Shown in pieces: positions 16,650-45,431 of a stretch of 64,000 bases of DNA (positions are counted from its first letter, which is position 1; each line of letters starts with the position of its first letter). The position numbers and the translations under genes are program-made. The stretch spans positions 1-64,000 of the forward strand of contig NZ_JAJOMB010000017.1 of assembly GCF_021129305.1 (NCBI RefSeq). Direction: 5' to 3'. Below the pieces are notes generated by a model. The model saw nothing but the letters and a program-made list of their open reading frames with translations. It searched no databases and was not told where the DNA came from. Source of the DNA: Kineosporia babensis (GTDB taxonomy: Bacteria > Actinomycetota > Actinomycetes > Actinomycetales > Kineosporiaceae).

Positions 16650-17360
16650 GTGCGTAAGACTCTCGGAACGATGACAGCGGCGACTCTGCTGGGGGCGAGC
16701 GCGCTCACCCTGGGCAGCGCTTCGGTCGCCTCCGCCGCAGTGGCCGGCGACCCCACTGGTTCTACCGGTACCGAGGTGTGCGCCCCTAACGGCAACGAAG
16801 TGCCTCAGGGAGCCGCCTTCGCCGGCGCCGGGGATGTTGATGGCGACGGCGCGAACGACGAGGTCTGGGTGAGCGACAGCCTGAAGGGGATCCGTACCGC
16901 CAGCGGCGCCGTCTACTCCCAGCCCATCGCCAACGCCGGCGGCCCGGAGGTCGGGGTGCGGGTGCTGCACCTGAACCACGACGTGGTGGCGCTGATCGAG
17001 CAGGGGCGCAGCACCTACGTGACTGCCTTCGCCGACTGCGGCCTGGTGGACACCTACGACAAGGACGGCCAGCCGCTGCGGTACGACCGTGGGCTCTCCG
17101 ACCCGTACCGGGATCTGGGATGCATCGGCGATGACGACTACAGCGAGCTGAACGAGCTGACCCTCGGCTACGACCTGAGCTTCAAGGACCAGCCGTGGTC
17201 GGTGGAGCAGACCGTCCTGGAGGTCACCGAGGACGGCACCGGGGCCACCGGCATCGACGGCTCGGTAAACCGCTACCCGACCGAGGAGCAGGCGCGGGCC
17301 GCCCTGGACGAACTGGCGGCGGGCAACACCTGCAGCACCGAGGTAGCCACCCTCGCCTAA
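16650..17360 (+). CDS. Secreted protein with a calcium-loop/FG-GAP-like motif
   Basis: 236 residues from GTG at 16650, with CGGAGGG 9 nt upstream. A Sec signal peptide (VRKTLGTMTAATLLGASA, cleavage near ASVASAAVA) precedes a mature protein with DVDGDGANDEVWVSD, a DxDxDG calcium-binding loop as in FG-GAP and dockerin-like repeats, but only one copy. Four cysteines could form disulphides. It is a clear paralog of the lipoprotein at 39682: both have GD(V/L)DGDGA.DE(V/L)W followed by GIRTASG or GVRTASG, then a beta-rich region and a late cysteine pair. Family unknown to me. It sits between two related palindromic terminators. Confidence 0.7.
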   Translation: MRKTLGTMTAATLLGASALTLGSASVASAAVAGDPTGSTGTEVCAPNGNEVPQGAAFAGAGDVDGDGANDEVWVSDSLKGIRTASGAVYSQPIANAGGPEVGVRVLHLNHDVVALIEQGRSTYVTAFADCGLVDTYDKDGQPLRYDRGLSDPYRDLGCIGDDDYSELNELTLGYDLSFKDQPWSVEQTVLEVTEDGTGATGIDGSVNRYPTEEQARAALDELAAGNTCSTEVATLA

Positions 17361-34484: not shown

Positions 34485-35285
34485 TCAAACCGCCTCGAGT
34501 GCTTCCCTGACCTGCCGGGCCAACCCAGTCACCTCGTCCACTGTTTGCCCTTCGAGCACGCGCCGCATCAGCGCGGCACCCATGACGACCCCGTCGGCGT
34601 GCCGCGCCGCCTCCACCGCGGTTTCCGGGCCGGAGATGCCGAACCCGAGCAGCACCGGACGGTCGGTGCAAGCCCGAACCCGGCCCGCCAGGTCGGCCGC
34701 CTGCTGTCCGAGCGACGTCCGCTCGCCGGTGGTTCCCATCACCGTGGATGCGTAGACGAAACCGCTGCCCACCTCGGCGATCTGCTTCAGTCGATCGTCG
34801 GGCGTGGAAGGCGCTGCCACCAAGACTGTTTCAATGTGATTGGTGCGGGCCGCCTTGATCAGAGGACCGGCTTCGTCGAGCGGCGTGTCGACGGGAATCA
34901 GACCAGAGACTCCTGATTCGGACAGGCGTCGGCAGAAGTCCTCATATCCATGGCGTTTGATCAGATTGCTGTAGGTCATGGCGATCAAGGGGACGTCCAG
35001 CTCGAGTTCCGCGATCGCGTGCAGGGCACGGGTGGTGGTCATCCCTCGCTCCAGCGCCCGCTGCGAGGCCTGCTGAATGGTCACGCCCTCGAGCATCGGA
35101 TCGGAGAACGGCAGCCCGATCTCGATGGCATCGGCGCCGGCCTCGACCAGCGCGACGACCAGGTCGAGCCAGTCCGCCGAGACCCCGGCCGTGACGAACG
35201 GAACCAGCAGTTTGCGCTTCTGGGATCGCCTTTCGCGCAGATGGGCTTCCAATTGAGGACGATCGCCCGTGGCCGTTCGGGTCAT
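34485..35285 (-). CDS. trpA: Tryptophan synthase alpha subunit
   Basis: 266 residues. The alpha-subunit active-site Glu lies in IEIGLPFSDPMLEGVTIQ, and the catalytic Asp region is VPLIAMTYSNLIKRHGYEDF. GLIPVDTPLDEA and LLGFGISGPE are further family signatures. It cleaves indole-3-glycerol phosphate and passes indole to the beta subunit. The ATG overlaps the trpB stop codon by 4 bp. Only trpB and trpA are present; trpC, trpD and trpE are not nearby, so this may be a second or specialised copy. Its 3' end is 40 bp from the end of the LytS-like gene, on the same strand. Confidence 0.92.
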   Translation of the reverse strand: MTRTATGDRPQLEAHLRERRSQKRKLLVPFVTAGVSADWLDLVVALVEAGADAIEIGLPFSDPMLEGVTIQQASQRALERGMTTTRALHAIAELELDVPLIAMTYSNLIKRHGYEDFCRRLSESGVSGLIPVDTPLDEAGPLIKAARTNHIETVLVAAPSTPDDRLKQIAEVGSGFVYASTVMGTTGERTSLGQQAADLAGRVRACTDRPVLLGFGISGPETAVEAARHADGVVMGAALMRRVLEGQTVDEVTGLARQVREALEAV

Positions 35286-36693: not shown

Positions 36694-37056
36694 ATGAGCG
36701 TCGTGCCCATTGCCAACCAGCACAGCGTGTTCAGCAGCTACGGTGCCGTACACATGCAACGCCAGCTGATCCCGTCCGCTGCGCTGCACTCCTCCGAACT
36801 CGGCATGGCCGCTCAGCAGGCGGCCGCCGCGATGGCGAACAAGGACTCGGTGCACCAGCAGCATTCGGTCGCGGCCACCAACACCGAGAACCGCTCGCAC
36901 AAGTTCGACAAGCATGCTCCGCACAGCGGCTCGACGGCCGCGGGAGCGGGTGGGGCCGGCGGCTCCGGTACCCGCGATGCGGACGCTCCGGACACCGCCC
37001 GCAACCAGGCCCGGGCCGACCTGCCCTTGGGGGCCGAGGTCGACGTCTACCTCTAG
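36694..37056 (+). CDS. Small hydrophilic protein of unknown function
   Basis: 120 residues from ATG at 36694; a GTG three codons upstream is also possible, and the ribosome-binding site is weak. The sequence (MSVVPIANQHSVFSSYGAV at the start) is rich in Ala, His, Ser and Gln, has no membrane span or signal peptide, and ends with a Gly-rich stretch (STAAGAGGAGGSGTRDADAP) and LPLGAEVDVYL. I do not recognise a family. Third-position GC is high, the frame closes immediately before a strong terminator, and the opposite frame is less convincing. It faces the sigma-factor gene tail to tail. Confidence 0.5.
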   Translation: MSVVPIANQHSVFSSYGAVHMQRQLIPSAALHSSELGMAAQQAAAAMANKDSVHQQHSVAATNTENRSHKFDKHAPHSGSTAAGAGGAGGSGTRDADAPDTARNQARADLPLGAEVDVYL

Positions 37057-37062
37057 AAGGCG

Positions 37063-37107
37063 ATCGGGCAGACAAAGGTGCGTTCAGGTGTCCTTTGTCT
37101 GCCCGAT
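37063..37107. terminator. Intrinsic terminator with T-run, bidirectional
   Basis: Exact 16-bp arms ATCGGGCAGACAAAGG and its complement enclose a 13-base loop, followed on the plus strand by TTTTCTCTT. It lies between the convergent small gene and the sigma-factor gene. It is one of the few canonical U-tract terminators in the window. Confidence 0.85.
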
Positions 37108-37119
37108 TTTCTCTTGCCC

Positions 37120-37710
37120 TCAGCGGGTCAGTCGTTTGCGCACCTCTTGGCGGGCCTGGTTGAGCCGCGACTTGACCGTGCCCAGCGGCAGGTCCAGGCG
37201 GTTGGCGATCTCCTCGTACTCCAGATCGGCCAGATCCCGGTAGACGAAGGGCAGGATCAGCTGGGGGTGCGAGCTCTCCAGGGACTCCAGCGCCTCCAGC
37301 AGATCGATGCGTGACCCTGCGATCACGCTCGTGCGCCGAGGGTCAGGGCGGATCTGTTCCTCCACGGTGAGTGGCTGCTCGCCTGCTCTGCGTTTCAGGT
37401 CTCGGTAGGTCTGACGTGCGGCGTTCGTCACCACCACGTAGAGCCAGGTACGGAACGAACTGCGGCCCTCGAAGCTGCCGATCCGGCGGGCGACCTGAAG
37501 CAGGGCGTCCTGCGCGGCCTCTTCGGCGTCTTCCCGATGGGGCAGCATTTTTCCGGTCCGGCGCAGCACTTCCGGCTGGATCAGGGCGAGCAGATCGTTG
37601 AGAGCTGCATCGTCTCCGGCCGCGGCCGCCCTCGCCAAGGTATCGATCCGGTCACTACCGGGCGAAGCAGCGCCCTGAGGGGCGGCGGGCTCTTCGGGTA
37701 CGTCGGTCAT
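37120..37710 (-). CDS. ECF-type RNA polymerase sigma factor
   Basis: 196 residues. Region 2 spans ~30-100 (EDAEEAAQDALLQVARRIGSF, then SFRTWLYVVVTNAARQTYRDL) and region 4 spans ~135-195 (LPFVYRDLADLEYEEIANRL, then PLGTVKSRLNQARQEVRKRL). No extra C-terminal domain is seen. No zinc-binding anti-sigma gene adjoins it; instead a receptor Ser/Thr kinase starts only 17 bp away on the other strand. Some ECF groups linked to Ser/Thr kinases are thought to be activated by phosphorylation, which is a reasonable hypothesis here. The ATG is immediately preceded by a possible -10 box, so the mRNA is probably leaderless. Confidence 0.88.
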   Translation of the reverse strand: MTDVPEEPAAPQGAASPGSDRIDTLARAAAAGDDAALNDLLALIQPEVLRRTGKMLPHREDAEEAAQDALLQVARRIGSFEGRSSFRTWLYVVVTNAARQTYRDLKRRAGEQPLTVEEQIRPDPRRTSVIAGSRIDLLEALESLESSHPQLILPFVYRDLADLEYEEIANRLDLPLGTVKSRLNQARQEVRKRLTR

Positions 37711-37715
37711 AGCGG

Positions 37716-37722
37716 CATGATG
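37716..37722. promoter_or_regulatory. Overlapping divergent -10 elements between sigma factor and kinase
   Basis: On the plus strand CATGAT (37716-37721) ends 6 nt before the kinase ATG. On the minus strand CATCAT (37722-37717) ends 6 nt before the sigma-factor ATG. Both match TANNNT only at positions 2 and 6. If real, one symmetric core serves two leaderless transcripts. Confidence 0.35.
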
Positions 37723-37727
37723 CTGCC

Positions 37728-39611
37728 ATGCCTCTGCCCGAGCTGATCGGTCGATACCGGCCTGTCCGACGTCTGGGCTCCGGTGGTTTTGCCGTCGTGT
37801 GGCTGGCCCACGACGAATCCCTGGATGCCGAAGTCGCCGTCAAGGTCATGGCCGACAACTGGGCCGACCGCATGGACCTGCGGGAACGCTTCCTGGGCGA
37901 GGCCCGGATGCTGCGCCAGGCGGCCTCCCAGCGGATCGTCCAGGTGTTCGACATCGGGGAGCTGGAGGACGGCCGGCCCTACCTGGTGATGGAGTACGCG
38001 GACGCCGGAACTCTCGCCGATCGGGTCAAGGCCAACGGCGCGTACCCGCTGGCCGAGGCGCTGCGGGTGACCGCCGAGGTGGCCCGCGGGGTGGCCGAGC
38101 TGCACGACGCCGGAGTGGTGCACCGCGACCTCAAGCCCTCGAACGTGCTGGTCAAGTCCACCCGCGGTGGGGGTGAGCGGCTGCTCGTGGCCGACCTGGG
38201 GGTGGCCAAGAGCCTGGCCCAGGGCTCGGGCGTGACGATGTCGGTGGGCTCGGCCGGGTACATGGCGCCGGAGCAGATGGAGCCGCAGATCGGCGTGGAC
38301 GTGCGGGCCGACGTGTACAGCCTCGGTGCGTTCGCGTTCTACCTGATGACCGCGCAGAAGCCGTACCTGCCGCTGGTGATGGCCGAGAAGATGCCGGCCG
38401 CGCTGCCCGACCCGGTGCTGGAGACCATGCTCTCGGCCCTCGAACGGGATCGGGAGATGCGCTGGCCGGACGCCGCCAGCCTGGCCGAGCGGTTCGATGA
38501 GCTGGCCGATCAGCTTCCGGACGACTTCTCGGTGTCCGCCGCCAGCTCGCCCACCGATGTCCAGACGCCGTACCCGAGTGCTCCGGTCGCGGCGGCGCCG
38601 GATCACAGCCCCACCCCGGACAGCCCGACGCCGGGCTGGACGTACGAGGGTGGCCAGAAGAAGCAGCCCGCTCTGCAGAACCAGGCGTTCGAGGCGACAC
38701 GGGCTGCGCCCAGCCGCCCGACACCGATGCCTCAGCGCGCTGCCAGCCCTCAGTCGGCTCCACCCCAGCCTCAGTACTTCCAGGAGCCTCAGCCGGGCGC
38801 ACAGGGCTTCCAGCAGGGTCCGGGCGATTACGGCCGCTCCGACTATCCGCAGCAGGGGCCCGGGCAGTACCAGGGCTACTCCCACGGCTACTCGCCGTCG
38901 GGGCAACAGCAGGGCTACTCGCCGAACCAGCCCAGTTATCCGCAGGGCCAGCCGGGCTATCCGCAGGGCGCCCAGCAGCCGCCCCGGCCTCCGGCCGAGT
39001 CGCTGTCCTCGCGGGGTGGCGCCCCACGAGGTGGTGTCTCACGGGGCGAGGGCCGCGGCCGCTGGATCGCGACGATGGTGGTCGTGGTGGCGCTGGCCGC
39101 CGCCACCGGCGTCGGCTCGGTGATGTTCTGGCAGAAGAACCGGAACCAGGACATCTCGGTCAGCACCGCCGACCAGTCCCTCAGGCTCACCGTGCCCAAG
39201 CAGTTCGGCCGGGAAGTGGTGGACAACGGCTGGAAGCCCACCTCGATCGGGCTGAAGGACGCCGAGGGTTCGGGGCTGCTCCTGGCCAACGATGTCGACG
39301 GCTGGTCCAAGCTGCAGCAGGACGTGGACGGCGTGTTCGTCGGCCTGAGCCCGCGGGAGAACCTGCCCAAGCGGGTCGCCGAGATCGAGCACGAGGACTG
39401 CACCAAGGCCTCGGCCGAGCAGTACACCGGGCCCGACTGGGAAGGTCAGCTGCAGACCTGGACGTCCTGCTCGGGCGGGCAGCGGGTGCTGTGGGAGATC
39501 AGCCTGAAGGCGGTCGACTCCGACCAGTGGGTCTACATGCAGGTGCGGCAGTCCGAGTACACCGTGGAACCGGCCGTGCTGATCGAGGGCCTGGAGCTGA
39601 CCGGCAGCTGA
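37728..39611 (+). CDS. Receptor-type Ser/Thr protein kinase
   Basis: 627 residues. The kinase domain (~8-265) shows the glycine loop RLGSGGFAVVWLA, Lys in VAVKVMAD, the catalytic loop VVHRDLKPSNVLV, DLG in place of DFG (VADLGVAKS), and SAGYMAPEQM. A Pro/Gln/Tyr-rich linker (~270-440, with repeats such as GYPQG and GYSP) leads to one membrane span (RWIATMVVVVALAAATGV, ~447-466). The extracellular domain (~470-627) has two cysteine-bearing stretches (EHEDCTKAS, WTSCSGGQ) and resembles no named sensor. It is divergent by 17 bp from the ECF sigma factor, a plausible phosphorylation substrate. Confidence 0.92.
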   Translation: MPLPELIGRYRPVRRLGSGGFAVVWLAHDESLDAEVAVKVMADNWADRMDLRERFLGEARMLRQAASQRIVQVFDIGELEDGRPYLVMEYADAGTLADRVKANGAYPLAEALRVTAEVARGVAELHDAGVVHRDLKPSNVLVKSTRGGGERLLVADLGVAKSLAQGSGVTMSVGSAGYMAPEQMEPQIGVDVRADVYSLGAFAFYLMTAQKPYLPLVMAEKMPAALPDPVLETMLSALERDREMRWPDAASLAERFDELADQLPDDFSVSAASSPTDVQTPYPSAPVAAAPDHSPTPDSPTPGWTYEGGQKKQPALQNQAFEATRAAPSRPTPMPQRAASPQSAPPQPQYFQEPQPGAQGFQQGPGDYGRSDYPQQGPGQYQGYSHGYSPSGQQQGYSPNQPSYPQGQPGYPQGAQQPPRPPAESLSSRGGAPRGGVSRGEGRGRWIATMVVVVALAAATGVGSVMFWQKNRNQDISVSTADQSLRLTVPKQFGREVVDNGWKPTSIGLKDAEGSGLLLANDVDGWSKLQQDVDGVFVGLSPRENLPKRVAEIEHEDCTKASAEQYTGPDWEGQLQTWTSCSGGQRVLWEISLKAVDSDQWVYMQVRQSEYTVEPAVLIEGLELTGS

Positions 39612-39681
39612 TCGGCGAACTTTTCGCCGGGCCCGGGCATCCAAGGATCGACACCGCCTCATTCCGGAAGAAGGACGCACC

Positions 39682-40455
39682 ATGCACAGCTCGGGACGCC
39701 GCCGGCTGGCCGCCCTGACTCTGGCGCCGGCCCTGCTCGGCCTGGCCGCCTGCGGCAACGAAAGTGCGCTCGAGCCTGTGAGAAACGTCACGGCCGGACC
39801 GGCCGGGCTCAACCCGTCCGCCGGGCCCAGCGCCACGACGGAGCCGGCCTCGGGCGGCGAGGACGGGTGCGCCGACGACGGCGGCCAGGTTCCGTCCGGA
39901 GCCGGCGCGGCCGAGGTCGGCGATCTGGACGGTGACGGCGCCCCGGACGAGCTCTGGATGGTCCAGGACGGCGGGCAGAAACGGCTCGGCGTCCGCACCG
40001 CCTCCGGCAAGGTGATGTCGACCGCGTACGAGAGCACGGAACCGGCCAGCGCGGTGGCGAACCGGCTGGGCGACGGCACCGCGATCATCCTGCTGAACAC
40101 CGGCCGCAGCGCAGCGCTGTACTCGGTGCTGGACTGCCAGATCGTGGCCACCGAGAACCAGACCGGCGAGCAGTACTCGTTCGACCTGGGCTTCGGCCAG
40201 TTCGGCACCGGGGTGGCCTGCCCCCTCTCCCCGGCCGACGACACGCTGTACCTGGCCGGGTACAAAGCCACGGACTCCGGCCGGGACGGCTACGAGAACA
40301 TCGTCCGCACCCGGATCGACCTGAGCGAGGGCGGCAGCCGGGCCGACAACGGCACGGTGGCCGAGCTCGGCGAGTACTCCAGTTCCTCGGCCAGCGCCAA
40401 GATCGCGCACGCAGTCAGCTGCGGCGACTCCGGAACCGTGGAAGAGCCCGCCTAG
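39682..40455 (+). CDS. Lipoprotein with calcium-loop/FG-GAP-like motif
   Basis: 257 residues. A lipoprotein signal ends LLGLAACGNE, followed by a flexible Pro/Ser/Ala stretch. The mature domain has EVGDLDGDGAPDELWMVQD, a DxDxDG loop as in FG-GAP/calcium-binding repeats, then GVRTASGKV and later cysteines (VLDCQI, GVACPLS, HAVSCGD). It is a paralog of the secreted protein at 16650. It lies 70 bp downstream of the receptor kinase in the same direction; the mature protein may be seen by the kinase's extracellular domain, which is inference from position only. The family is unknown to me. Confidence 0.68.
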   Translation: MHSSGRRRLAALTLAPALLGLAACGNESALEPVRNVTAGPAGLNPSAGPSATTEPASGGEDGCADDGGQVPSGAGAAEVGDLDGDGAPDELWMVQDGGQKRLGVRTASGKVMSTAYESTEPASAVANRLGDGTAIILLNTGRSAALYSVLDCQIVATENQTGEQYSFDLGFGQFGTGVACPLSPADDTLYLAGYKATDSGRDGYENIVRTRIDLSEGGSRADNGTVAELGEYSSSSASAKIAHAVSCGDSGTVEEPA

Positions 40456-40463
40456 GACAGGCC

Positions 40464-42665
40464 CTAATCCACCCGCTGCAGGTCGGCGAACCCGACGTTG
40501 CCCGCGTTCGCCGCGTCCTTCCAGGTGAAGGTCAGCTTGTCCGGGTCGCTGAGGTCCTGCAGCAGGGTGACCTCGCCCAGGGGCGCGCAGGTGCCGCTCT
40601 CATTGTCCGAATCCTTCACCGGGGCACTCAGATTGGCGGTATAGAGGCTGGCGCTGGTGATCGTGAGCTTGGACCGGCAGCCGAGCCCGGGCGCCTCCAT
40701 GGTGCCCGGCTTCTTCTTGGCGCCCTTCAGGTCGAGCTGGACCGTCCAGGTGCTCACCGTGCCGGTGACCTGTGAAACCTCGCCCTCCCACTCGCCTTCC
40801 ATGCCGTAGGGCAGAGTGTTGAGCGGCGCTACCTTCTGCGCGTCCTTGCTGTCTTCTTCCTTCTTTTCCTTCTTGTCGGAAGAACTGTCGGCGCAGTCGG
40901 AACCGTCGGCCCCGACATTGATCCGGCCGCCGCAGGACTCCGGATCGGCTGCCTTCCCGGAGCCGCTGTCGTCGTCGATCAGCGACGTGCTGTCGTTGTC
41001 CGGGTTGCTGACGCTGTCGCTGTTGGCCACGTTGTAGACGCCCGCACCCACGACCAGCGCGAACACGGCGACCGCGGTGAGCACTACGGCCCGGCCCCGG
41101 TTCGGCGGCGGCGTGGGCCGGTTCGGGCCCTGCCCCGGAATCCGGTTCGGGCCGCCACCGTTGCCTCCGCCCCACTGCTGCTGGTTCCAGCCGGTCGGGC
41201 GCGCGGGAGCACCGCTACCTACCCGCTGGGCCGGGCCGGGCATCGGCGGAGGGGGAGCGTTCCGAGGGCCGCCCTGGTTCGGCCGGTTCGCCGGCTGGCC
41301 CCAACCCTGCGGCTGATTCGGCGGCTGGTTCGGTGGGCCCCACTGCGGGCTCTGCGGCGGTTGGTAGGCAGCCGGCTGAGCGTTCTGGTTCCACCCCTGC
41401 GGCGCCGGGCGTGAAGGAGCCGGGTGTGAAGGAGCCGGGCGCGAACCCTGCTGCCCACCGAAACCGTGCGGGCCCGAACCGTGCTGCCCCGAGCCGTGTT
41501 GCGGGCCCCAGTGCGGCTGGGCCGGAGCCGGCGGCGGGTACTTCTGCGGCTGCGAGTACTGCCCGTTCTGCTGGACACCCTGCTCGCGACCGCCGTGCGT
41601 TCCCCAAGGCGGGACGTCTCCAGATGGAACGCTGGGGCTCACCGGCCCCGAGGTCCCGGTCGGCCGCCGGTCCTGCACCTGCGGCCGCTCGAGGCGGGTC
41701 TCGTCCAACGCCGGCGCCTGCTGCACCTGGGTGTAGCGGGCGTCCGGCCCCGCCGCGACCGTGCGCCCCTGCGGCTCGTAGCCCGAGGTCGGGCCGGTCG
41801 GCGATGCCTCCACCAACTGCGTGGCCTGGGCCAGCACCACCGTCGCGTCGGGCACGTCCGGCTGGTTCGGGCGGCCCAGCAGCATCGACAGCGCGTGCTG
41901 GGCGGTGGGCCTGCGCGACGCGTCCTTGTCCAGGCACTGCAGCAGCACGTTGCGCAGTTCGCCCGGCACGTCGCTGAGATCGGGGTGCTCGTTGGCGATC
42001 TTGGCGATCGCCGCCATCATGTGCTCGGCCTCGAACGGCGCCCGGCCGGTGGCCGCGAAGGCCATCACCGAACCCCAGGCGAACAGGTCGGTGGCCGGGC
42101 CCACCCGCTCGCCGCGCAACTGCTCCGGCGACATGTAGGCGGGCGTGCCGAACAGCTTGCTGACCTTGGTGGTGTCCTGCGAGAGGTCGCGCGCGATGCC
42201 GAAGTCGATGACCCGGGGGCCCTCCGGCGACATCATCACGTTGGCCGGCTTGAGGTCGCGGTGCACCACGCCGGCCTGGTGGATGGCGGCCAGGGCGGTG
42301 GCGGTGCCGATCGCCAGGCGCTGCAGCCGGGTGCCGGACATCGGGCCGCGCTCGCTGATGTACTGCTGCAGCGAGGGGCCTTCGATGAACTCGCTGATCA
42401 CGTAGGGCGGCTGCGACTCCAGGTCGAAGTCGAGGATCTGCGCGGTGCAGAACGGGGCCACCCGCCGGGCGGCGGCCACCTCCTTGGCGAACTGCTCGCG
42501 CGAGCGTTCGTCCTCCACCCGCAGCATCTTGACCGCGACCAGTTCGTTGTCGGGAGAAAGGCCCAGGTAGACCACTCCCTGGCCACCGGCCCCGATGCGG
42601 CCGGTCAGGCGGTAGCCCGCCACCTGCGCAGGGTCGGCGGACAGCAGCGGGGCGACGTCAGGCAC
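40464..42665 (-). CDS. Receptor-type Ser/Thr protein kinase with Pro/Gln-rich linker
   Basis: 733 residues from GTG at 42665, chosen because VPDVAPLLSADPAQVAGYR aligns with the start of the paralog upstream and a CAGACT box ends 6 nt before it. Kinase motifs: RIGAGGQGVVYLG, VAVKMLRVED, VVHRDLKPANVM, VIDFGIARD, GTPAYMSPEQL. The linker (~300-520) is extremely rich in Pro, Gln, Gly and Asn. A membrane span (~525-545) precedes an acidic, Lys-rich stretch and an extracellular domain (~620-733) with WTVQLDLKGA, GCRSKLTITSA and FTWKDAANAGNVG. The domain is shared with the kinase at 42771. Its 3' end nearly abuts the lipoprotein gene. Confidence 0.9.
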   Translation of the reverse strand: MPDVAPLLSADPAQVAGYRLTGRIGAGGQGVVYLGLSPDNELVAVKMLRVEDERSREQFAKEVAAARRVAPFCTAQILDFDLESQPPYVISEFIEGPSLQQYISERGPMSGTRLQRLAIGTATALAAIHQAGVVHRDLKPANVMMSPEGPRVIDFGIARDLSQDTTKVSKLFGTPAYMSPEQLRGERVGPATDLFAWGSVMAFAATGRAPFEAEHMMAAIAKIANEHPDLSDVPGELRNVLLQCLDKDASRRPTAQHALSMLLGRPNQPDVPDATVVLAQATQLVEASPTGPTSGYEPQGRTVAAGPDARYTQVQQAPALDETRLERPQVQDRRPTGTSGPVSPSVPSGDVPPWGTHGGREQGVQQNGQYSQPQKYPPPAPAQPHWGPQHGSGQHGSGPHGFGGQQGSRPAPSHPAPSRPAPQGWNQNAQPAAYQPPQSPQWGPPNQPPNQPQGWGQPANRPNQGGPRNAPPPPMPGPAQRVGSGAPARPTGWNQQQWGGGNGGGPNRIPGQGPNRPTPPPNRGRAVVLTAVAVFALVVGAGVYNVANSDSVSNPDNDSTSLIDDDSGSGKAADPESCGGRINVGADGSDCADSSSDKKEKKEEDSKDAQKVAPLNTLPYGMEGEWEGEVSQVTGTVSTWTVQLDLKGAKKKPGTMEAPGLGCRSKLTITSASLYTANLSAPVKDSDNESGTCAPLGEVTLLQDLSDPDKLTFTWKDAANAGNVGFADLQRVD

Positions 42666-42770
42666 TGATTCAGTCTGCCACCCGGAGCGCACCGATCTGT
42701 AGCGATCGGGGGCAACCGTCCCTCTTGGACCGTCCAATCCGACTCTGGGTAGGCATTAGCGCACGGAAGG

Positions 42771-44453
42771 TCACTGGATCCGGAAGGTTCCGCCGCCGAC
42801 GTTGCTCGCGTTGGAGTCGTCCTGCCAGGACAGCACCAGTTCACCGTCGCCGCTGCGGGTGAGCCGGACCGTGCTGCTGTCGGCGCAGCGGTCCCACAGA
42901 TCGTCTTCCAGCTGGGTGGTCAGCACCACCGAATCCGCGCTGGACTCGTCGGGCCGGTAGTTCAGGGCGCCGCTGCAGCCCAGCTCCCGGATCTCGATCC
43001 GGCTTTCGCCGGCCCCCTCGGCCAGCGTGAGCTCGGCCTGCCACTCGCTCACCTGGCCGACCGGCTGAAACACGTCGCCGACCCAGGTGCCGGAGGTCCA
43101 TTCGGGCAGACCAGCAACGGACGCGGTGGGCGCGGCCGTCTCGCCGGTGCCGGGGTATTCGGTGGTCGGCTCCGAACTAGGGACGCTCGACTCGCCGGGG
43201 GTGCCTTCGGTCCCGTCCCCGGGGTTCTCGCCGGGGCTTCCTTGATCGGCGCCGGTTTCGGTGGTGCGGGATCCGCCCTGGTCCAGGAAGGTGCGCAGGG
43301 CATAGGCGCCGCCACCCACGATGCCGCCGCCGATCAGCAGCACGGCCAGGATCGCTCCGGCCGAAGAACCCAGCCCCACGCCCCGGCGGCGGGGTTTGGG
43401 CACCGGCAGGCCGTTGGGCGGGGTTTCCGGCGTGCCGTACTCAGGCGAGTGCTCGGGCGAGGTCCAGGCCGGAACGACGCGTCTGGTGGTCGGGGTGTTC
43501 TGGCCTTCGTCCCCGCCAGTTCCAGCTTCCTGGTCAGGGCCGGCGTCGGGGTCGCGGCCAACTGGGGCATCAGGTCCGGTGGCAATGGCGGTGGCGGCCA
43601 CCCGGCTGCCTTCGGCGAGCACCAGCGTCGGATCGGCCTGGTCGTGGGCGGGCTGAGGCCGGCCCAGGAGCATCGCCAGGGCCTGCTGGGCGCTCGGGCG
43701 CTGGGCAGCGTCCTTGTTCAGGCACAGTTTCAGCACTTCGGCCAGGGCGTCGGGCACCCCGTCGAGCGAAGGCTCCATCGTGGTGATCCGGTGCACCACG
43801 GCCATCATGTGCCCGGCCTCGAACGGTGCCCGGCCGGTGGCAGCGAACGCGATCACCGAGGCCCAGGCGAACATGTCGGTCTGCGGGCTGACCCGTTCGG
43901 AGCGGATCTGCTCCGGCGCCATGTAGGCCGGGGTGCCGAAAATCCGGCTGGTGACGGTGGTGTCGTGGGAAAGGTCGCGGGCGATGCCGAAGTCGATCAC
44001 CCGCGGGCCCTCGGGCGAGATCATCACGTTGGCCGGCTTGAGGTCGCGGTGCACCACGCCTGCCTGGTGGATGGCGGCGAGTGCAGTGGCGGTGCCGATC
44101 GCCAGCCGCTGCAGCCGGGTGCCGGTGATCGGGCCGGTGTCGCGGACCAGTCGTTGCAGCGACGGCCCCTCGATGAACTCGCTCACCACATAAGGTGATT
44201 CGCCTTCGAGGTCGAAGGCGATGATCCGGGCCGTGCAGAACGGCGCAACCCGCCGGGCCGCCGAGACCTCCTTGGCGAACTGGAGCCGGGAACGCTCGTC
44301 CTCCAGTTTGAGCTGTTTCACCGCCACCCGGGCGCCGTCCGGGCCGACGCCGAGGAAGACCACGCCCTGTCCGCCCTGGCCGAGCCGTCGCAGGATGCGG
44401 TACCCGGAGACCTCGGCAGGGTCGCCGGTGCGCAACTTGCTTGCGTCAGGCAT
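42771..44453 (-). CDS. Receptor-type Ser/Thr protein kinase
   Basis: 560 residues from ATG at 44453; a CAGTAT box ends 6 nt upstream. Kinase domain (~15-275): RLGQGGQGVVFLG, VAVKQLKLED, VVHRDLKPANVM, VIDFGIARD, GTPAYMAPEQI. The linker is shorter than in the paralog downstream. One membrane span (~363-382) follows a PRRR stop-transfer stretch. The extracellular part ends with the same domain as its neighbour: W.G.V.Q..GQVSEWQAEL, ELGCSGAL and LSWQDDSNASNVG. This and the kinase at 40464 are a tandem duplication, 105 bp apart, with different linkers, and probably respond to related signals. Confidence 0.9.
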   Translation of the reverse strand: MPDASKLRTGDPAEVSGYRILRRLGQGGQGVVFLGVGPDGARVAVKQLKLEDERSRLQFAKEVSAARRVAPFCTARIIAFDLEGESPYVVSEFIEGPSLQRLVRDTGPITGTRLQRLAIGTATALAAIHQAGVVHRDLKPANVMISPEGPRVIDFGIARDLSHDTTVTSRIFGTPAYMAPEQIRSERVSPQTDMFAWASVIAFAATGRAPFEAGHMMAVVHRITTMEPSLDGVPDALAEVLKLCLNKDAAQRPSAQQALAMLLGRPQPAHDQADPTLVLAEGSRVAATAIATGPDAPVGRDPDAGPDQEAGTGGDEGQNTPTTRRVVPAWTSPEHSPEYGTPETPPNGLPVPKPRRRGVGLGSSAGAILAVLLIGGGIVGGGAYALRTFLDQGGSRTTETGADQGSPGENPGDGTEGTPGESSVPSSEPTTEYPGTGETAAPTASVAGLPEWTSGTWVGDVFQPVGQVSEWQAELTLAEGAGESRIEIRELGCSGALNYRPDESSADSVVLTTQLEDDLWDRCADSSTVRLTRSGDGELVLSWQDDSNASNVGGGTFRIQ

Positions 44454-44669
44454 CCGGCCATACTGCCAGGCGGTCCTGATCACCAGGGAAAATCCTCCGA
44501 CAGTGACATTTTCATCACCCTGAGTCAGTCAGGGTCACAGCGGGTGGAACTCAGGGACAGCCCTGATGCCGGTCCGCAATGCTCGGCTTACGCTGGCTGA
44601 GGGTCGATCGGCAGGGGGATTGCCGGGCCCGACGTGTGCAAAACCTGCGGAGGGGGCGGTGAGTGGTCA

Positions 44670-45431
44670 ATGTTCCACGCCTGGCGCGGTATCCGGGAAC
44701 TTGTTCTGCTGGGCGCCCTCTGGGGTGTGTACTCGCTCTCGCGGCTGCTGGCCTCGGCCGAACTGGAACCGGCTCTGGCCCGCGCACAGTCGGTCCTGGA
44801 GACCGAGCAGTTTCTCGGCCTGCACCACGAGCTGAGCTTCAACCATTTCGTCGCGGGCCACGAAGTGCTGGCCGTGGCCTCGAGCTATTACTACGCCGCG
44901 GCGCACTACCTGGTCACCGCGGCCGTGCTGGGGTTGCTCTGGTACCGCGGCCCGCAGATCTACCAGCAGGCCCGTAACGGCCTGGTCCTGGCCACCGTGA
45001 TGGCCCTGGCCGCGTACATCACCATGCCCACCGCCCCGCCACGGTTCGTGCCCGGCTACCTCGACGTGCTCGCCGAGAACGCCGATCTGGGCTGGTGGGG
45101 CGCCGGGCACTCGCTGCCGGGCGAGATGGGGCAGCTCACCAACGAACTGGCGGCGATGCCCTCGATGCACGCCGGCTGGGCGCTCTGGGTGGCCCTGGCC
45201 GTCGCCCTGGTCACCCGGAATCCGTGGCTGCGCAGCCTGGGCTGGGCGCACGCGCTGCTGACCGGGCTGGTGGTGATCGGCACCGGCAACCACTGGACCC
45301 TGGACGTTCTCATCGGCTGGGCCGTGGTGAGCATCGCCTGGGCCCTGGCCAGCCGGCTGAGCGCACCCGCCGAGGCCGCCGTCGCGGCCCGACGATCGGC
45401 CGACGTGGCCGCCAAGAGCGTTGCCCGCTGA
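44670..45431 (+). CDS. PAP2-superfamily phosphatase (membrane)
   Basis: 253 residues from ATG at 44670, with GGAGGGGG about 13 nt upstream; a GTG at 44634 is an alternative. About six membrane helices. The three PAP2-like motifs in actinobacterial form are MPTAPPRFVPGYLD, AAMPSMHAGWALWVAL and GTGNHWTLDVLIGWAV, in which the second His and the Asp are catalytic. Relatives act as lipid phosphatases or inositol-phosphoceramide/phosphoinositol-type transferases on the outer membrane face. The substrate is unknown. It is divergent from the kinase gene at 44453. Confidence 0.85.
   Translation: MFHAWRGIRELVLLGALWGVYSLSRLLASAELEPALARAQSVLETEQFLGLHHELSFNHFVAGHEVLAVASSYYYAAAHYLVTAAVLGLLWYRGPQIYQQARNGLVLATVMALAAYITMPTAPPRFVPGYLDVLAENADLGWWGAGHSLPGEMGQLTNELAAMPSMHAGWALWVALAVALVTRNPWLRSLGWAHALLTGLVVIGTGNHWTLDVLIGWAVVSIAWALASRLSAPAEAAVAARRSADVAAKSVAR

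Follow-up and report, generated by a model that had tools for sequence, protein, structure and literature searches.

A conserved pair of an ECF sigma factor and a divergent receptor Ser/Thr kinase in Kineosporia babensis and other actinobacteria, with a candidate control threonine in the sigma linker

What controls an ECF sigma factor that adjoins a membrane Ser/Thr kinase gene, keeps an intact acidic region 2.2 and has no anti-sigma gene beside it? The question is raised by a five-gene locus of Kineosporia babensis (genome size 9.4 Mb), which was analyzed within a window of 64,000 nucleotides (contig NZ_JAJOMB010000017.1, positions 1 to 64,000). From the tryptophan synthase side to the PAP2 gene, the locus encodes an ECF sigma factor (−), the receptor kinase STK1 (+), a lipoprotein (+) and the receptor kinases STK2 (−) and STK3 (−). 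A Trp_syntA gene at 34485 and a gene for a PALP enzyme at 35282, presumably trpB (a label given from its position), flank the locus on one side, and a PAP2 gene at 44634 lies on the other. The features are as follows.

37120..37710, − strand: ECF sigma factor, 196 aa, with Sigma70_r2 and r4_2 domains; region 2.2 DAEEAAQD at residues 61–68; linker Thr127-Ser128 (DPRRTSVIAG)
37711..37727, between the two genes: divergent start region, 17 bp; CATGAT-N6-ATG facing STK1 and CATCAT-N6-ATG facing the sigma gene
37728..39611, + strand: STK1, Hanks-type receptor Ser/Thr kinase, 627 aa (Pfam and fold prediction); kinase domain about 10–261, membrane segment about 447–467, extracytoplasmic domain (predicted PsbP-like) about 471–627
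39682..40455, + strand: lipoprotein with a lipobox and one DxDxDG loop
40464..42737, − strand: STK2, receptor Ser/Thr kinase; C-terminal extracytoplasmic domain at 40467–40823, predicted with low confidence to be lipocalin-like
42771..44483, − strand: STK3, tandem paralog of STK2, with an extracytoplasmic domain of the same type at 42774–43112

All genes described in a first-pass annotation of this DNA were present as open reading frames and in Pfam searches. The annotation had placed the sigma factor 17 bp from a receptor kinase; this distance is exact and separates the start codons of two divergent genes, an orientation that it had not mentioned. The sigma factor matched Sigma70_r2 (3.6e-13) and r4_2 (1.8e-8) in Pfam, while the Pkinase model matched STK1, STK2 and STK3 with E-values of 3.9e-41, 1.6e-45 and 2.4e-44, respectively. 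The catalytic Lys, the HRD and the D[LF]G are retained in each kinase, and a membrane-like hydrophobic segment separates the kinase part from the C-terminal domain. The sigma factor is unlike anti-sigma-controlled ECFs, as a Pfam scan of its neighbors in the window revealed no anti-sigma family. Elsewhere the search was partial: no anti-sigma gene was seen when translations from 32 loci were inspected by eye, and a scan for a zinc-finger anti-sigma motif matched 2 of 80 loci (the best 80 of 425 relatives), both in doubtful frames. Within this scope, the earlier statement that the sigma factor has no anti-sigma neighbor stands.

Several further elements border the locus. A small ORF (36694–37056, +), convergent with the sigma gene and with no assigned function, gave no Pfam family above cut-off and is matched in 5/5 other genomes of the genus with 35–69% identity. 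Between this ORF and the sigma gene (about 37056–37120), an inverted repeat at 37060–37116 can be seen in the sequence and is likely a bidirectional terminator; the terminator scan did not list it because its loop is longer than the limit of the scan. An Rfam scan of the whole window was empty. On the other side, the PAP2-family gene (44634–45431, +) follows STK3 in 6/6 genomes of the genus, window included.

The conservation of the sigma–STK1 pair was assessed at three depths. In the family, the sigma factor was found at E ≤ 1e-25 in 10 of 13 genomes, its own included, and STK1 was divergently adjacent in all nine sigma-bearing genomes besides the window (5/5 in the genus and 4/4 in sister genera). 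In a contig scan, from which the best 80 of 425 confirmed relatives were taken (the named loci being actinobacterial), an STK1-type kinase was divergently adjacent in 57 of the 80 loci, within about 2 kb downstream in six (L105, L107 and L115–L118) and about 1.9 kb off in the same orientation in two (L113 and L114), with none within 5 kb in the remaining 15. As this sample is biased to best matches, an even draw of the class was also taken. The sigma factor was found at E ≤ 1e-30 in 72 of 394 genomes, own included, and the 75 matches outside its own genome comprised 51 with a divergently adjacent kinase, 8 with a kinase elsewhere in the stretch and 16 without. The best 29 matches, all divergently adjacent, were retrieved with flanks of ~1.5 kb and the other 46 with ~2.5 kb, so that a more distant kinase would be missed in this draw.

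Proximity alone is weak evidence, because a kinase match was also present in 3/20 of the best non-orthologous ECF loci in a rough control. The 17-bp spacer is identical in 6/6 genomes of the genus and the pair recurs across actinobacterial genera, so the pairing exceeds chance. The first-pass annotation had made its functional link depend on where orthologs of the sigma factor lie; they mostly lie beside a kinase (57 plus 8 of 80, and 51 plus 8 of 75), and the link survives. The sigma–STK1 pair is the ancient core of the cluster, deeply conserved across actinobacterial genera. Two other ECF sigmas (L012 and L015), with 31–35% identity to the window sigma, also adjoin an STK1-like kinase match, and kinase-linked ECFs thus reach beyond this group. 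Sigma frames with one internal TGA were seen in three genomes (L244, L288 and L289) and are either decayed genes or matches running past a stop.

The sigma gene also occurs in a shared neighborhood with and without the kinase. A glycosyltransferase-20 gene and a PALP gene are found near the pair in Actinomadura, Thermomonospora and Actinoallomurus, while in Microbispora, Streptosporangium and their kin the sigma gene stands alone beside the same two genes, which we take to be trehalose-phosphate-synthase-like and threonine-synthase-like, respectively. The two gene clusters, identified by Pfam on one representative each, are each found in 13 linked and 13 unlinked loci. In a quick IQ-TREE phylogeny with a midpoint root, built from 91 sigmas without L056 and without column 127, three changes are needed to account for the kinase-less sigmas, namely a clade of 14 (SH-aLRT 100) and the singletons L095 and L106. 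Because the clade is nested among linked lineages, we read it as having lost the kinase; this direction, as opposed to a gain elsewhere, depends on the midpoint-rooted quick tree, which joins some long branches and has several poorly supported deep forks. Two Planotetraspora genomes (L121/L127 and L122/L128) have one kinase-linked sigma and a second without a kinase match in a short locus, and the sigma of a Streptosporangiaceae metagenome-assembled genome (L086) is kinase-linked.

Comparison of linked and unlinked sigmas points to Thr127, in the linker motif DPRxTSVIAG, as a candidate control site. Among the best 80 of 425 relatives, this position is Thr in 64/64 readable linked loci and in 2/15 unlinked loci, while the neighboring Ser128 is present in all readable rows, linked and unlinked. 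In the even class sample, it is Thr in 59/59 kinase-linked and 1/16 kinase-less sigmas, the other 15 having Val; in the tree set, linked rows have Thr (71), Val (4) or a gap (1) and unlinked rows Val (14) or Thr (2). These sets overlap in kind and are therefore not independent tests. Exceptions occur in both directions: Val127 is found in 4/4 sister-genus sigmas of the tree set, all kinase-linked, and Thr127 is kept at three kinase-less loci (L095 and L106 in the tree set and L276 in the even sample). The 75 linked rows share 57 columns with a conservation of 90% or higher; Thr127 and Arg191 are the only two of these that no more than 20% of the kinase-less clade retains (14 rows, with L095, L106 and L056 set aside). 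The kinase-less sigmas are essentially one clade, which leaves about one independent kinase loss behind the pattern, so an independent-pairs test cannot reach significance and Thr127 is a lead rather than proof.

In ECF holoenzymes, the linker between sigma2 and sigma4 passes through the RNA polymerase core. The reading that we favor, with slightly better than even confidence, is a two-gene module in which STK1 would control the back-to-back ECF sigma by phosphorylation, likeliest at linker Thr127. A membrane Ser/Thr kinase with a predicted PsbP-like outer domain would thereby control a soluble sigma factor that has no anti-sigma gene nearby. Tuning or inhibition would be a more likely effect than obligatory activation as in EcfP, since the charge in region 2.2 is already present and kinase-less orthologs with a non-phosphorylatable Val are kept. 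Val does not mimic phosphate, and the Val127 form is retained in nine named genera; should Thr127 be the site, the sigma factor is probably active when unphosphorylated, and we infer the sign of the effect from this, with the kinase probably tuning or restraining the sigma factor. A bolder version, which we regard as doubtful, is that the pair may represent a second mode of phospho-control, opposite in sign to EcfP, in which an RNA polymerase-competent sigma would be tuned or silenced via Thr127 and the Val127 clade of Microbispora, Streptosporangium and Planotetraspora would be a natural unphosphorylatable form.

Conserved adjacency would also result if the sigma factor merely transcribed the kinase gene. 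Regulation would then run in reverse, with the sigma factor transcribing STK1 and itself, STK1 acting on other proteins and the pair being a transcription unit only. The back-to-back starts are consistent with this, and autoregulated neighbors are common among ECF systems. Furthermore, 36/57 divergently adjacent loci have an AT[GC]AT box, mostly CATGAT, whose end lies 6–7 nt ahead of the STK1 start, compared to 301/125003 (0.24%) at random positions; the 21 box-less adjacent loci are mainly Nocardiopsis-like, Nocardioides and Kribbella. The value of 36/57 is the position-specific count. A looser scan, for which three loci were cut too short, gave 41/57, including eight Nocardiopsis matches elsewhere in the intergenic region and, in addition, one chance-like match (L109).

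The distribution of the box argues against reverse regulation. In the looser scan, no match to the pattern was found upstream of the sigma gene in 23/23 loci without divergent adjacency, and the L113 and L114 kinases, which lie away from the sigma gene, have the box as judged by eye; the box therefore belongs to STK1. Each genome of the genus holds 9–16 matches to GGCATGAT-N6-RTG, compared to 1–5 for the reversed control, so the box appears to be an ordinary leaderless promoter serving STK1. As a regulon marker, the GGCATGAT box was rejected, being common throughout the six genomes of the genus. In the window, a hexamer stands 6 nt before both ATG codons, which suggests two leaderless promoters with putative −10 elements that would overlap, judging from the spacing alone. 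Identity at fourfold sites in codons 1–15 of the sigma gene is 0.87 (8 sites), compared to 0.64–0.72 further on, and for STK1 it is 0.73, compared to 0.61–0.78. Reverse regulation also gives no reason for the change at Thr127 with kinase absence, and we consider it a serious but minority possibility.

The first-pass annotation had read the whole island as one system, in which STK2, STK3 and the lipoprotein would feed the sigma factor together with STK1 and exported proteins would be the input that is sensed. The six genomes of the genus do share one gene order (sigma, STK1, lipoprotein, two STK2/3-type kinases and the PAP2 gene), and the lipoprotein adjoins STK1 in all of them. A lipobox protein is the next listed gene in 28/80 STK1-cluster rows, compared to 41/1126 other genes, and in 23/70 rows when ten STK2/STK3 rows are left out, although these counts come from a simple pattern on rough gene calls and are inflated by related species. 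Two such lipoproteins, one from Streptomyces and one from Planotetraspora, carry DUF4232 and thus belong to a different family from that of the window.

Among the loci compared, however, the lipoprotein and STK2/STK3 accompany the pair only in the genus of the window, whereas no more than sigma and STK1 is seen in sister genera and in other families. The lipoprotein itself is as first described, a calcium-loop protein after STK1 with a lipobox and a single DxDxDG loop (DLDGDGAPDE); its match to FG-GAP_3 in Pfam (E 0.71) is under the cut-off. Of its 12 paralogs found, 10 loci were examined and all lie away from kinases. A distant paralog (31% identity) is located ~22 kb off in the same window at 16713–17279 (+). 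With the outer domain shared by STK2 and STK3 also occurring in other settings, the claim of a single five-gene system does not hold up well and we think it unlikely; the lipoprotein, STK2 and STK3 were added at the level of the genus and may serve as extra inputs or substrates. In related loci, one further gene cluster is found at 14 linked loci and adjoins the sigma gene in the three inspected (L042, L045 and L050). Its representative (L042:8602–11028) is a PAS-GAF-SpoIIE-type phosphatase with a HATPase domain by Pfam, and a phosphatase of this type beside the sigma gene would suit reversible phosphorylation.

The outer domains of the kinases were compared with known folds and families. That of STK1, aligned as 41 sequences (the window and 40 of 41 homologs, the short L056 being dropped), gave a predicted fold with a mean pLDDT of 90.8. 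Its best PDB fold matches were a subunit of the plant NDH-PSI supercomplex (6.8e-4), PsbP (8.0e-4) and DcrB (1.0e-3), with a weaker match to Mog1 (5.9e-2) and TM-scores of about 0.4–0.5, and the domain is thus predicted to be PsbP-like. STK2 and STK3 are 66% identical over 320 columns holding the kinase part. An unrecognized domain common to both had been proposed, and its motif (W.G.V.Q..G.VS.W, LGC and W.D..NA.NVG) is real: the two outer domains are 29% identical, with 11 invariant columns over 12 copies from the genus. Pfam gave no family above cut-off for either copy (for STK2, SusE with 18.3 bits compared to the required 25.2), and a profile search against PDB sequences returned one match with an E-value of 1.1. 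A fold predicted from two sequences for the STK2 domain (mean pLDDT 69.8) matched Cap15 (8.0e-4), a lipocalin-like milk protein, nitrobindin and designed barrels, a low-confidence hint of a lipocalin-like barrel.

The shared outer domain occurs in four copies in the K. babensis genome, each on a kinase. When up to 15 candidates were scored per genome, 26 of 296 class genomes, own included, had it at E ≤ 1e-5. At the loci examined, some of its carriers are kinases and others have no kinase match, and most of the proteins examined have a hydrophobic stretch before it by a crude pattern. The domain is therefore an unnamed, widespread module and no hallmark of this island. For the kinase domains, the best models were PknB_PASTA_kin for STK1 (192.7 bits, far under the cut-off of 450) and AfsK for STK2 and STK3 (NF053615; 204.7 and 201.8 bits, far under the cut-off of 1300). 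Unlike PknB/PASTA kinases, STK1–STK3 showed no PASTA domains in Pfam, and the predicted PsbP-like (STK1) and lipocalin-like (STK2) outer domains differ from those of both PknB/PASTA and AfsK-like kinases.

Two further alternatives fare worse. STK1 might hold the sigma factor at the membrane in the manner of an anti-sigma factor, by binding and without phosphorylating it, as no other anti-sigma gene was found nearby and STK1 has a membrane segment; such a tether, which we find improbable, is at odds with the catalytic residues, which are conserved wherever the 84 kinase rows can be read (Lys and HRD Asp in 84/84, DFG Asp in 83/84 with one unaligned). An EcfP/ECF43-type switch, in which the sigma factor would be inactive until STK1 adds a missing negative charge in region 2.2, draws on the kinase neighbor and absent anti-sigma gene seen in ECF43 and on the available text of PMC8103513, where replacement of the DAED motif is described as general for kinase-regulated ECFs, but it was rejected at the sequence level and is very hard to credit, since region 2.2 reads DAE[DE]A[AC]Q[DE], with its acids intact and with neither Thr nor Ser, in 79/79 readable sequences from the best 80 of 425 relatives.

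The module that we favor, in which STK1 would phosphorylate the sigma factor, was compared with known systems. It resembles ECF43, represented by EcfP-PknT of Vibrio parahaemolyticus and EcfK-PknS of Xanthomonas citri, in setting an ECF sigma beside a membrane Hanks kinase. ECF43 sigmas typically have Thr in region 2.2 instead of the acidic DxxD, whereas the window sigma keeps its acids, and the ECF43 mechanism, in which phospho-Thr supplies the missing charge, is therefore not applicable; nor do sigmas of the window type fit the DAED-loss rule as worded in the portion of PMC8103513 at hand. According to the accessible part of PMC13147305, X. citri EcfK is phosphorylated by PknS both in region 2.2 and in the sigma2–sigma4 linker, where the phosphosites matter; the latter region holds the candidate Thr127 of the window sigma.

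A closer relative may be ECF283. As far as the available text of PMC8999054 goes, the kinase-linked ECF groups without the usual anti-sigma partner include ECF283, whose model is WP_056749340.1 from Nocardioides sp. Root190, and outside ECF43 these groups retain a DAED-like motif and may follow another mechanism, a question named there as open. ECF283 and the window pair are alike in being actinobacterial, with a Ser/Thr kinase neighbor, no usual anti-sigma and a DAED-like motif. The window sigma is an actinobacterial ECF with a kinase neighbor and without an anti-sigma neighbor (by Pfam at the window, by eye and motif elsewhere), and seven Nocardioides sigmas in the tree have an STK1-type kinase beside them or 1.9 kb off, which makes identity with ECF283 likely, although the two were compared by description only and the assignment is unproven. 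The combination that the first-pass annotation did not recognize is thus less novel than it appeared, ECF283 having already been cataloged as kinase-linked in that source. The literature searched, mostly at abstract level and with few subscription papers, contained no experimental description of the sigma–STK1 pair.

Kinase-linked actinobacterial ECF sigmas are thus already known as a class in ECF283, to go by the available text of PMC8999054, and since the acidic core-binding motif is preserved in the kinase-linked groups outside ECF43, the EcfP switch may not explain them. With a widespread pair, one candidate residue and a kinase-less lineage in the same neighborhood, the question becomes directly testable in standard laboratory strains of Streptomyces or Actinomadura. 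The value of this locus is that it allows a clean test of what controls kinase-linked ECF sigmas whose core-binding motif is intact.
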